Source: Gemmatimonadota bacterium (GTDB taxonomy: Bacteria > Gemmatimonadota > Gemmatimonadetes > Longimicrobiales > Gaopeijiaceae). From it: a DNA stretch of 64,000 nt. Of this stretch, positions 48,303 to 53,733 are shown piece after piece. The position numbers and the translations under genes are program-made. Within the stretch, counting starts at the first letter, position 1, and each line of letters starts with the position of its first letter. The stretch covers positions 1 through 64,000 of the forward strand of contig JADFSR010000014.1 of NCBI GenBank assembly GCA_022560615.1, given 5' to 3'. The notes under the pieces were generated by a model, which made no database searches, was not told the DNA's origin, and worked only from the letters and a program-made list of their open reading frames with translations.

Positions 48303-49514
48303 GTGACGATCGACCGTCGGAAGCTTGCGGACGAGTTGAAGCAGCACGCCCTTGCCTCGGGGTTTTCGCTCGCCGGCATCGCACCCGTGGACGCGAGTGA
48401 GCATATGCCGGCCTACCGGGCTTGGATCGACGAGGGCCGACACGGAGAGATGGCGTACCTGTCGCGTGCGGACGCGGTCTCCCGCAGAGCCGACCTCGAC
48501 TCCACGCTGAACGACGTGCGGTCGGTGCTCGTCGTCGCGCACGAATACTTCGTCGAGGATCCACCAGGGGTGCCGGAGGACGCTTCGCGCGCCGTCATCG
48601 CCCGCTATGCGCGGGGGGACGACTACCACGACGTCGTGAAGAACAAGCTGATCTCGCTCGCTCGGTGGTTGGACGCCAGGATCGATTCGAAGCTTCAGGC
48701 GCGAGCGTACGTCGACACCGGCCCTATCCTGGAGCGTGACCTCGCGCAGCGCGCCGGCCTCGGCTGGTTCGGCAAGAACACCATGCTCATCAACCCGCAA
48801 CGAGGCTCCTACTTCTTCGTGGGTCTGCTACTGCTCGACTTAGAGTTGCCTCCGGACGAGCCGTTCGTGGAGGATCGTTGCGGGACATGTCAGGCGTGCC
48901 TCGACGCGTGCCCGACCGGCGCGTTGCTGGGCCGTGACGAGAGCGGCGCGCCCATCATCGACGCGAGGCGGTGCATCTCCTATCTGACCATCGAGCTCCG
49001 CGGCCCGATCCCCGCGGAGTTGCGACCCGACATCGGGAACCGCGTTTACGGGTGTGACATCTGCCAGGAGGTCTGTCCATTCAGCCGTAAATTTTCTGTG
49101 CCCTCGGAGGAGCCCGCGTACTCTGCGAGACCTGAGTTCGACGGACCGCCGCTCGTAGAGTTGGCGGAGAGGCTCTTGTCGTTGTCGGGGCGGGGATTCC
49201 GTCGGGCTTTCGCGGGCTCTCCGGTACTCAGGGCCGGGCGTAAGGGGCTGCTTCGCAACGTGTGCGTGGCGTTGGGCAATTGGGGGTCACCTTCGGGGGT
49301 AGCGGTGCTCGCTAGGGCATTGGTGGATCCGGCCTCGCTCGTGCGCGGACACGCTGCTTGGGCACTGGGGACTGTAGGCTCCCCCGAGGCGATCTCATTG
49401 CTCTCAGAGCGGGCAGCAGATGAGGCCGACGACTGGGTTAGGGGAGAGATCGAATTCGCGCTGTCCCCACCGAGCGGGACCAAGCGTGGATCAAGCGGGT
49501 CAGAGGCGAGGTAG
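48303..49514 (+). CDS. queG: Epoxyqueuosine reductase QueG
   Basis: 403 aa from GTG 48303. Catalyses the last step of queuosine formation in tRNA, using cobalamin and two 4Fe-4S clusters. N-terminal cobalamin-binding part with ERDLAQRAGLGWFGKNTMLI, clusters CGTCQACLDACPTGA and CDICQEVCP (about 198-265). C-terminal HEAT-like repeats (LRNVCVALGNWG, VRGHAAWALGTVG) for tRNA binding. A second, partial queG-like sequence lies at 52750-52915. Confidence 0.93.
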   Translation: MTIDRRKLADELKQHALASGFSLAGIAPVDASEHMPAYRAWIDEGRHGEMAYLSRADAVSRRADLDSTLNDVRSVLVVAHEYFVEDPPGVPEDASRAVIARYARGDDYHDVVKNKLISLARWLDARIDSKLQARAYVDTGPILERDLAQRAGLGWFGKNTMLINPQRGSYFFVGLLLLDLELPPDEPFVEDRCGTCQACLDACPTGALLGRDESGAPIIDARRCISYLTIELRGPIPAELRPDIGNRVYGCDICQEVCPFSRKFSVPSEEPAYSARPEFDGPPLVELAERLLSLSGRGFRRAFAGSPVLRAGRKGLLRNVCVALGNWGSPSGVAVLARALVDPASLVRGHAAWALGTVGSPEAISLLSERAADEADDWVRGEIEFALSPPSGTKRGSSGSEAR

Positions 49515-50165: not shown

Positions 50166-50288
50166 GTGCGCCAGGCATGGCGCGGCCCGCCGTATAGCGG
50201 GCGATATAACCGTGCGGCGAAAGCCAAGCGGGAAGTGACTTGGGGGTGAGAGTCCCCTGGGGACCCTGGTGGCTGGGAACCCGTCCTC
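50166..50288 (+). mobile_element. Group II intron 5'-end fragment
   Basis: GTGCGCCAGGCATGGCGC starts at 50166 and continues through GCCCGCCGTATAGCGGGC and CCGTGCGGCGAAAGCC. It is about 67/68 identical, on the opposite strand, to the first 68 nt of the element at 36075. Here it extends into GGGGGTGAGAGTCCCC, typical of intron domain I. The rest of the intron is missing and a transposase remnant follows. Confidence 0.6.
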
Positions 50289-50296
50289 CGCGAAAA

Positions 50297-50920
50297 CTCG
50301 ATCCGCGCGGATTCTTGGGCACGGATCGACCGATCCACCTGTTGATCGACAGTACGGGGCTCAGGATTCACGTCGGGCATCTACGGAAGCCGCCAAAGAA
50401 CAGGGCTTGGAGGAAGCTGCACCTCGCGGTTGATGCCCGTACCGGTGAGATCGTCGGCTCGGATCTGACTGGCCGACGGACAGCCGATTGTGCGCGGGTG
50501 CCTGTCCTCATCGAGCAGATCGACGATCGGATAGCATCCGTCTCGGCCGACGGGGCCTACGATGCGGCGGCCGTTTACGAGGCGGCCCAGGTGAAGGGTG
50601 AAGGCCACGCTGTGAGAGTGCTCATTCCACCTGGACGCGAGGCTCAGCTGAATCCGAGGCCCTCAGCCGCACAGTACAGTAAGGAGAGGAACCGCAACAT
50701 CCGCTCGATCCGGGAGCTCGGTCGACGCAAGTGGCACACGCGCTCCGGTTACAGCACGCGCAGCCTGGTGGAGAATACCGTCTTCCGATACAAGACGATG
50801 ATCGGTCGAAGTATCAGAAGCCGAACCTTCGACGGACAACGAGTCGAGGTACGGTTGGCGAGCGCGATTCTCAACACGATGACCCGTCTCGGGATGCCCG
50901 ACAGCTACCGAGTGGCGTGA
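50297..50920 (+). pseudogene. 5'-truncated IS5-type transposase
   Basis: About 207 residues. DDE-type motifs: HLLIDSTGLRIHVG (first Asp), HLAVDARTGEIVGSDLT, VSADGAYD (second Asp) and LVENTVFRYKTMIG (Glu). The N-terminal helix-turn-helix (RYELTDEQ-type) is missing, cut by the intron fragment. Downstream GAGCCATGCAACAACGC (about 50958-50974) resembles an IS right end. A different IS5-type fragment is at 36385-36590. Inactive. Confidence 0.75.
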
Positions 50921-51036
50921 ATCCCGCTCGGGGGACGGGGGATCTGTCCTCTGCTCCGAGCCATGCAACAACGCTGTTGTTGGTAGTCGTTTTCATGGAT
51001 GGAGTCTGCAGCGGCCAGGCTCAAGTTGACAATACC

Positions 51037-51146
51037 TCCCGTACGGGACGCTTTCCCTGGACAAGGGCGCGAAGACATACAATATTCCCGTACGGGATGA
51101 ATTCGTTCTTTGAGGTGTTAAAGCCCCAATGCCCTACCGTACGGGA
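51037..51146. promoter_or_regulatory. Three evenly spaced operator palindromes before hipBA
   Basis: TCCCGTACGGGA at 51037-51048 and 51086-51097, and TACCGTACGGGA at 51135-51146. Starts are exactly 49 bp apart. The last one ends nine bases before ATG 51155 and overlaps the ribosome-binding site. HipB-type antitoxins autorepress by binding several palindromes, so these are probable operators. A TTGACA hexamer lies at 51026-51031, but no good -10 at 17 bp is seen. Confidence 0.75.
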
Positions 51147-51154
51147 AGAGCGCC

Positions 51155-51406
51155 ATGACGACTGAGGGCCAAATCCGAAACACAGCCGACCTGGGAAGAT
51201 TACTGCGTGCCTACCGCAAATCTCGAGGATTATCGCAGGTCGATGCGGCCGCCCTGGCCGGTGTCGGCGAGCGCTTCCTCTCTGAACTCGAACGGGGCAA
51301 GCCGACTGCCGAAATCGGGCTCGTCTTCAGGGTCCTCGACCGCTTCGGCCTGACGCTGGTCCTGGCCACGCGTAGCGGCGGCAACCTGTTGGATGAGCGA
51401 TCATGA
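51155..51406 (+). CDS. hipB: HipB-like antitoxin (XRE helix-turn-helix)
   Basis: 83 aa from ATG 51155. The HTH (RKSRGLSQVDAAALAGVGER, FLSELERGKPTAEIGLVFRV) is the Y4mF/HipB type and ends in a strand DRFGLTLVL as in HipB. Antitoxin that blocks HipA and represses the operon. Overlaps hipA by ATGA. Confidence 0.9.
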   Translation: MTTEGQIRNTADLGRLLRAYRKSRGLSQVDAAALAGVGERFLSELERGKPTAEIGLVFRVLDRFGLTLVLATRSGGNLLDERS

Positions 51407-52641
51407 ATCTCGGCCTCCTGGTCGTTCGCCACTTCGGGCGTGATGTCGGGACGATCACCCGCACGAGCAGCGGAGGCCTGTTGTTCGAATATGCCGACAG
51501 CTGGTTGGCGAAACCCGGGTTCGCCCTCGCGACGAGCCTCCCTCTGGCCCAGGGGGCACACGAGACTTCATTCTTCAGCAACCTACTGCCCGAAGCCGGG
51601 GCGCGGGAGCGCATCGCCGGAAGCGCGGGCATCTCACCCGAAAACGATTTCGCTTTCCTGAGAATGTTCGGAGCCGACTGTGCCGGCTCCTTGGAGATCA
51701 CAGATCCCGACGAGGAGCCGCAAGCCATCGCCGGCCCCGACTTTCTCCGGCTCACTGCAGAAGACGGTGAACGGCTAGGGACGAAGGCAGGGTTCGCGGG
51801 TCTCTTCCTTCCGGGGAAGCGTATTCGCCTCTCACTCGCCGGAGCCCAAAACAAATTGGCGGTGATCGAAACGGATGATGGGCTGGCCGTTCCCCTTGAC
51901 GGGCGACCGAGTACGCACGTTCTGAAGCTACCCAACTCCGACTACAAAGGCCTCGTAGAAAACGAAGCGCTCATGCTCTCGCTGGCAGCGGCGGTCGGAT
52001 TGCCTGTGGTCGACCACGAGGTCATCACTCTGGGTGAAACCAGAGTGTTGCTCGTGGCTCGCTACGACCGGGAGGTAACGGACGGCCAGGTTTTGCGGCT
52101 GCATCAACAGGACCTGTGCCAGGCCACCGGACTTCCACCCGACACCAAGTACGAAAGCGAAGGAGGCCCGTCGCTACAGACGGTTTTCGACCTCGTGAGA
52201 CGAGAGGTCGCTGATCCACTCACCGCCGCCACAACGCTGCTGGACTGGGTCGCCTTTAATGTCCTCGTGCATAACGCGGATGCGCACGCGAAAAACGTCT
52301 CCATCCTACGAACGGCGGAGGGGCAGCCTGAACTTGCCCCGTTTTACGATCTTGTCTGCACCGGAGCTTATCCCTTCGACCACCGGATGGCGATGTCGGT
52401 CGGTGGGCAATTCGACCCCGGGGCCGTCGATAAGAACAACTGGGTGCAATTGGCATCGGATATCGGGATCGGCAAGTCACTGGTACTGAGCACCGTTGAG
52501 AGGATGGCCGACCGAATCCCCCGGGTCCTTGATGAGGAAATCACGAGGCTCCAAAATCGACTCGGCCGGATCCCCAGGCGCCAGCAGGTGGAACACACCA
52601 TCAAACACCGCGTGAAGAGGACACTGGACTTCCTGGGTTGA
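51403..52641 (+). CDS. hipA: HipA-like Ser/Thr kinase toxin
   Basis: 412 aa from ATG 51403. Couple_hipA N-terminal domain (RTSSGGLLFEYADSWL), kinase core with LSLAGAQNKLAV (P-loop), HVLKLPNS, catalytic HNADAHAKNVSI and metal-binding APFYDLV. HipA kinases phosphorylate glutamyl-tRNA synthetase or related targets to halt growth. Intact and coupled to hipB; both lie in a region full of broken mobile genes. Confidence 0.92.
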   Translation: MNLGLLVVRHFGRDVGTITRTSSGGLLFEYADSWLAKPGFALATSLPLAQGAHETSFFSNLLPEAGARERIAGSAGISPENDFAFLRMFGADCAGSLEITDPDEEPQAIAGPDFLRLTAEDGERLGTKAGFAGLFLPGKRIRLSLAGAQNKLAVIETDDGLAVPLDGRPSTHVLKLPNSDYKGLVENEALMLSLAAAVGLPVVDHEVITLGETRVLLVARYDREVTDGQVLRLHQQDLCQATGLPPDTKYESEGGPSLQTVFDLVRREVADPLTAATTLLDWVAFNVLVHNADAHAKNVSILRTAEGQPELAPFYDLVCTGAYPFDHRMAMSVGGQFDPGAVDKNNWVQLASDIGIGKSLVLSTVERMADRIPRVLDEEITRLQNRLGRIPRRQQVEHTIKHRVKRTLDFLG

Positions 52642-52749: not shown

Positions 52750-52915
52750 ACAGGTATACCGGCAGGTCTGCCAGGAGGTGTGTCCGTTCACACGAAAGTT
52801 CTCGGTCCCGACCTCAGAGCCGGCGTACTCTCCCAGGTCGGAGCTCGATGGGCCGTCACTCGTTGAACTGGCGGAGCGACTCTTGTCGTTGTCGGGGGAG
52901 GAAGGCTTCTCCTGC
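52750..52915 (+). pseudogene. Second queG fragment
   Basis: It encodes (C)QEVCPFTRKFSVP, SEPAYSPRSELDGPSLVE, LAERLLSLSG, clearly the stretch of queG found at 49070-49190, but with many silent and conservative changes. So it is not a fresh copy; it may be a remnant from another lineage's queG. Homology fades on both sides. The 110 bp before it and 140 bp after it show no recognisable gene. Confidence 0.7.
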
Positions 52916-53058
52916 GCGACCTTCACGACTACCAATTGCGACGCGCCGGAGGCGTGTTGCGCGTACCACAACGTATCCCGCGACAGCGGCAAGCGTTGGT
53001 TAGGCGCCGCTCACACCGTCTGTCGGGAAGAGTGTCTGTGCACGATCGCCGAAGCTGA

Positions 53059-53733
53059 TCATGGTTCGCCGTCCGTACATGGCTGATCGGTTGGCACCGC
53101 AACAAGTAGGAAGTGCAGATCCACATCGTTGGACACCTTCACGAGACCAGCCGTGGACTCAGGTTCGATGCCGAAGTCCCGCTGGCGGACCCTCAGGACT
53201 CCGCTGAGCCGTGTTGTCCCGTCGTTCGGCGACTCGATTCGCATGGGCACCGAGACATCCCGAGTGATGCCGTGGAGCGTGAATCGACCGTATCCAACCA
53301 GGCTGCTTTCCCTGTCTGACGCGACTGAATCGATCGTGAGCACGATCTCTGGGTACGCCTGGGCATCGAGGTGTTCGGCATCCAGCATCTTACGCTGGAT
53401 CTCCAAGACGTCGTCCTCGCCGGGCCCGCCGCCGAGCCCGGCAAGTGCGCGGGCGGAGTCGCTATCGATCACGAGGGATCTGGACTGTATTACAACCTTC
53501 CCGTGGGCCGACCGAGGGATTGGCTCAGCGAGGCACATCTCTGCTCTCCATTCTCCGGGAACGATGGCGTGCTCATGGCCGAAGAACGAGAGCAACCCCG
53601 CCCTGTGCGTTACCAGGAATAGCGACGATCGCTCCCGGTCAACCACGTACGATCGCGGCGCTTCCTGGGCGCCTGAGCGACCCGTCCCCGCCACGGCGAG
53701 GCAAAAAACGGCGGCGGCGACGCGAGCATTCAT
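53059..53733 (-). CDS. YceI-family periplasmic protein
   Basis: 224 aa with a signal peptide ending near GAQEA. A YceI lipocalin-like barrel: YVVDRERSSLFLVTHRAGLL, FGHEHAI, YPEIVLTIDSV, GYGRFTLHGITRDVSVPM and a final RDFGI. YceI proteins bind polyisoprenoid-like lipids. Monocistronic. Confidence 0.85.
   Translation of the reverse strand: MNARVAAAVFCLAVAGTGRSGAQEAPRSYVVDRERSSLFLVTHRAGLLSFFGHEHAIVPGEWRAEMCLAEPIPRSAHGKVVIQSRSLVIDSDSARALAGLGGGPGEDDVLEIQRKMLDAEHLDAQAYPEIVLTIDSVASDRESSLVGYGRFTLHGITRDVSVPMRIESPNDGTTRLSGVLRVRQRDFGIEPESTAGLVKVSNDVDLHFLLVAVPTDQPCTDGEP

Follow-up and report, generated by a model that had tools for sequence, protein, structure and literature searches.

A putative three-operator hipBA array in a Gemmatimonadota genome whose 49-bp step appears to be kept in relatives while the operator letters change

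Introduction

HipA-HipA contacts occur in the HipBA-promoter complex of E. coli, and the way HipBA complexes on separate operators interact bears on HipA inhibition and on persistence mutations such as hipA7; to our knowledge, such inter-operator contact has been described only at the 28-bp spacing of E. coli. The operators O1-O4 of the E. coli K-12 hipBA operon (TATCCN8GGATA) are palindromes over and upstream of the promoter, bound cooperatively by HipB with HipA as co-repressor (PMC3376134, PMC3920265), and their steps, as measured by us in NC_000913, are 28/39/28 bp. In the HipBST system of Legionella, three evenly spaced operators, each bound by HipB, are conserved across 28 species (PMC10653801). 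In Caulobacter, the hipBA1 and hipBA2 promoters carry identical inverted repeats in series, with spacings that the authors call 'consistent with' the higher-order complex of E. coli; the accessible part of that account states no spacing rule or cross-phylum comparison (PMC7029023). More generally, no spacing rule was found stated in the open hipBA literature, although priority is not certain, two key structural studies (Schumacher 2015, Wen 2014) being outside this scope. Here we describe a hipBA locus with three putative operators at equal steps and compare its spacing with that of other HipA-type loci.

Materials and methods

The region 150-500 bp upstream of hipA was scanned in 288 HipA-type loci for repeated palindromes, with steps of 18-140 bp allowed, and each array was scored against dinucleotide shuffles. 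Keeping one locus per HipA cluster at 60% identity left 71 significant non-redundant arrays. The HipA tree comes from a quick IQ-TREE run, and the counts of recognition helices and half-sites used in the Fisher test were taken from the alignment.

Results

The hipBA locus and its surroundings

The window, that is, the whole stretch of 64,000 nucleotides analysed, comes from a 4.5-Mb genome of the Gemmatimonadota and contains an antitoxin gene directly upstream of a kinase gene, as is characteristic of hipBA, with the two reading frames overlapping by 4 nt (Table 1). HipA has the N-terminal Couple_hipA and kinase domains of the family with catalytic and P-loop motifs, keeps RLSLAGAQNK and HNADAHAKN, and has glycine where E. 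coli has G22, while HipB reaches 71.5 bits against TIGR03070 (Y4mF-type antitoxin), for which the curated cut-off is 71.65. Palindromic operator-like sites, a further mark of hipBA type II toxin-antitoxin operons, are present before hipB. Relatives of HipA at E <= 1e-20 were found in 47 of the 198 genomes of a class-wide search and in none of the same genus (one genome sampled), so the operon is regarded as accessory. Viral contigs yielded no relatives with either HipA or HipB as query. A 131-nt direct repeat, its copies 76% identical and 3707 bp apart, flanks a DDE transposase gene together with hipBA, and this pair may be the footprint of how the hipBA segment got inserted.

Table 1. Features of the hipBA locus and its surroundings in the window.
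Feature	Position	Strand	Sequence	Remarks
131-nt repeat, copy 1	49060-49190			in the 3' part of a QueG-like gene
DDE transposase ORF	50240-50920			PF01609; ends ~120 bp upstream of O1
Putative operator O1	51037-51048		TCCCGTACGGGA	read from sequence
Predicted -35	51058-51063	+	TGGACA	starts 15 bp past O1 centre; conserved in L002
Predicted -10	51081-51086	+	AATATT	17-bp spacer; ends 5 bp before O2 centre
Putative operator O2	51086-51097		TCCCGTACGGGA	adjoins predicted -10, spans predicted start
Putative operator O3	51135-51146		TACCGTACGGGA	one outer pair mismatched; overlaps hipB Shine-Dalgarno region
Probable Shine-Dalgarno	51143-51150	+	GGGAAGAG	read directly from sequence
hipB	51155-51406	+	recognition helix GVGERFLSELERGK	83-aa Xre/Cro-type HTH antitoxin; PF01381, PF13560
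hipA	51403-52641	+		412-aa HipA-type Ser/Thr kinase toxin; PF07804 (6.7e-52), PF13657
131-nt repeat, copy 2	52767-52897
ORF over repeat copy 2	52778-53086			resembles the same part of QueG

Three putative operators at equal steps

By exact coordinates in the window sequence, O1 to O2 and O2 to O3 are each 49 bp, and the preliminary description, which had reported three palindromes starting at 51037, 51086 and 51135 exactly 49 bp apart, was right in both letters and coordinates. Its placing of successive sites almost on opposite faces of the DNA has to be corrected, since 49 bp makes 4.67 turns of 10.5 bp each, or about 240 degrees (or -120), and O1, O2 and O3 face about 120 degrees apart from one to the next around the helix. 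That these palindromes control hipBA agrees with what we find: they look like HipB operators and are set before intact hipB and hipA genes. The window holds six copies of CCGTACGG, where 1.25 would be expected; none of 100 shuffles reached six, and half of the copies (3/6) fall in the 110-bp operator stretch; the repeat-plus-palindrome score of the hipBA upstream region lies 7.8 sd above shuffles (0/60).

As in E. coli K-12, palindromic sites lie over and upstream of the promoter, here a predicted one, with the -10 abutting an operator, and the approximate helical phase is alike (0.67 turn here vs 0.67/0.71). The array differs from that of K-12 in having three sites at 49/49 rather than four at 28/39/28 bp, and other half-sites; neither TATCCN8GGATA operators, the sites being TCCCGTACGGGA, nor an E. 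coli-type four-site 28/39/28 array was found at this locus. The Legionella HipBST array also has three evenly spaced operators, but it belongs to a tripartite system, with 18-bp operators, '53-bp inter-operator gaps' and a different motif (PMC10653801). The y4mF/y4mE-type locus of Sinorhizobium fredii NGR234 (L105) shares CCCG..CGGG operators and 49-bp steps and has a Y4mF-type antitoxin, the class whose cut-off the HipB described here narrowly misses, although its HipA is only 40% identical and its sites are TTCCCGANCGGGAA.

The predicted -10 is a weak consensus match whose placement is repeated by the relatives. At most loci with a recognisable sigma70-type promoter, the -35 starts 13-16 bp past an operator centre and the -10 ends 5-8 bp before the next. 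Two other candidate elements were rejected: TTGACA at 51027 as a -35 has no -10 at 16-18 bp, and TACAAT (51078-51083) as a -10 is just 14 bp from TGGACA. The preliminary description had the last site blocking the ribosome-binding site or the transcription start; O3 does lie over the Shine-Dalgarno region, but the predicted start lies under O2 and the predicted promoter between O1 and O2. Being in leader DNA, O3 could act only as a DNA roadblock.

The step in close and distant relatives

The closest relative, Gemmatimonadetes MAG B62T3L11 (G189 among the genomes, L002 and L031 among the loci; HipA about 85%), has three sites with steps of 48/49; its first site is TACCGTACGGTA in place of TCCCGTACGGGA, a symmetric change on both arms, and its spacers differ from those of the window at many positions. 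In another phylum, a locus whose HipA is 65% identical (L182) carries three CCCGTACGGG-type sites with steps of 49/50. At HipA identities of about 35-45% the letters of the palindromes differ and the step holds, and distant hipBA triplets at 49-50 bp are built of other palindromes, such as TTCCCGATCGGGAA, TTCTCACTATAGTGAGAA and ATCTCCCTATAGGGAGAT. Examples are three TTCCCGATCGGGAA-type sites at 49-50 bp in Gemmatimonadota (L003-L010), TTCTCACTATAGTGAGA(A/T) at 49/49 in Bdellovibrionaceae (L033) and at 50/50 in Deltaproteobacteria (L032), and ATCTCCCTATAGGGAGAT-type sites at 49/49 in L118. Plasmid loci of Sinorhizobium NGR234 (y4mF), Tistrella, Novosphingobium, Sphingobium, Rhizobium tumorigenes, Roseibium and Acidiphilium likewise fall at 49-50 bp, those of Sinorhizobium and Novosphingobium as triplets. 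Among 298 Gemmatimonadota genomes, 19 have CCGTACGG pairs at 38-64 bp, and the triplet at about 49 bp occurs only in this genome and G189. The spacing before hipBA homologues, which the preliminary description had proposed to compare, is conserved (48/49 at 85%, 49/50 at 65%, 49-50 in distant loci); random spacing in homologous operons, named there as the outcome that would speak against its reading, is not what the relatives show.

Operator spacing across HipA-type loci

In an earlier locus set, significant arrays were found in 115 of 234 upstream regions against 7 of 259 control stretches. Four or five of these seven controls are 40-41 bp TATACCC-type arrays, which are probably part of three-gene hipBST-like operons. 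With this detector, no significant array emerged at about half of the loci surveyed. The adjacent spacings of the 71 arrays (about 132) are concentrated at 48-52 bp (54), 26-29 bp (37) and 39-41 bp (21); rarer ones lie at 30-35 bp (9), 44 bp (1), 60-61 bp (3) and 64 bp (2), with single others. Consecutive steps agreed to within 1 bp in 48 of 61 cases, where permutation gave a mean of 17 (0/2000).

On the HipA tree, the loci of the 28-bp class, E. coli among them, form a single clade (SH-aLRT 99), and the 49-50 bp class makes up the bulk of the other classical HipA rows. Departures inside the 49-50 clade are at 39 bp (L114, L184, L262; L307 and L308 were added by the 288-locus scan), 41 bp (L022) and, once, 30 bp (L071), with none of its kept rows at 42-47 bp. 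The departures at 39-41 bp are one helical turn shorter than 49-50. Taking 10.5 bp as one turn, 28, 39 and 49 bp correspond to 2.67, 3.71 and 4.67 turns, which suggests, without proving it, that rotational register is kept while distance shifts by whole turns. Against this, the rungs share a phase only loosely, 27.2, 40, 49.7 and 60.5 bp giving 0.59, 0.81, 0.73 and 0.76 turn.

Discussion

Probable selection on the distance between operators

We consider it likely that the locus carries a three-operator hipBA autoregulatory array in which neighbouring HipBA complexes are in contact and the step is held by rotational register. A HipB dimer, alone or as HipA2B2, would bind each palindrome; O1, just upstream of the predicted -35, and O2, on the predicted -10 and start, would flank the core promoter, with O3 as an extra leader site. 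HipB2/HipA2 complexes on neighbouring operators would then touch in a fixed register, enclosing the promoter, and the array would repress hipBA. By analogy, the contact may be of the E. coli HipA-HipA kind, made at 49-50 bp with a clade-specific geometry. Contact between neighbouring complexes would be the reason that the step is held at 49-50 bp here and at ~28 bp in the E. coli clade, and the need to keep rotational register the reason that spacing changes mostly by whole helical turns. As far as sequence can tell, the array would be a variation on known hipBA autoregulation, with linear bridging, looping and wrapping alike as compatible candidates that sequence cannot separate.

The geometry of RNA polymerase could by itself set a 49-50 bp step, with no HipBA-HipBA contact, and the regular placement of -35 and -10 between operator centres at most recognisable promoters is what such bracketing would give. 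It accounts, however, for one interval only, whereas the second is also 49-50 bp, and the steps of an array match one another. In the window and L002 the predicted promoter occupies the O1-O2 interval, at most other loci the O2-O3 interval; the remaining 49-50 bp interval, with no evident promoter, is downstream in the former and upstream in L003-L010, L017, L118 and L133. Because this promoter-free interval keeps its length in both arrangements, and since the core promoter has the same length across organisms whereas the spacing tracks the HipA clade (28, 39 or 49-50 bp), we hold bracketing as the sole cause to be unlikely. Descent from a tandemly duplicated 49-bp unit, the spacing merely persisting, is highly improbable: duplication would yield equal steps and near-identical operators, but spacers within one array have no similarity evident by eye, and between relatives they diverge while their length varies by no more than 1-2 bp across phyla. 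Spacers under no constraint would accumulate indels, which argues against mere persistence.

Contact between neighbouring HipB or HipBA complexes, in comparison, predicts just such a spacing conserved under changing operator letters. The inter-operator distance itself thus appears to be under selection, which probably lets neighbouring repressor complexes touch. More tentatively, in a reading that we hold to be slightly less likely than not, a register rule may run through the family: phase would be near-constant and distance quantised at ~28, 39, 49-50 and 60 bp by HipA clade, HipBA would polymerise or bridge via a conserved contact, and the 49-bp class would have an architecture distinct from the solved E. 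coli one. That a spacing ladder spans the family while the operator letters vary points to an interaction under selection, and the ladder offers an easy means of locating hipBA operators in uncharacterised genomes and assigning them to classes.

Some loci stand apart from this ladder. Besides L071 with its 30-bp step, L015 and L016, each with four operators, depart from the spacing rule in their last step (64-65 bp), and in a distant HipA-like group (L119, L123, L129, L139, L147) two AT-rich palindromes lie 31-32 bp apart, out of register with the other classes.

HipB as the probable binder

Half-sites ending in CCG[A/T] pair with recognition helices that contain R[F/Y] (23/1/6/25, Fisher 7e-9, a p that is too small since the rows are related and is indicative only), and NGIS-type helices accompany half-sites such as CTCACT and CTCCCT, again among related rows. 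This is indicative that half-site sequence co-varies with the HipB recognition helix. HipB binding at these sites is read from sequence, which leaves room for another regulator as the binder; to this we grant the slightest probability, for such sites stand immediately in front of hipB in many genomes, their half-sites shift along with the HipB helix, and in E. coli the palindromes are bound by that organism's HipB (PMC3376134). In the HipBST-like operons L157, L165, L229, L246 and L298, TATACCC-type palindromes stand at 40-41 bp steps, and in several of these operons the HipB helix (GVGLRF, GVGIRF) is similar to the helices of the CCCG class.
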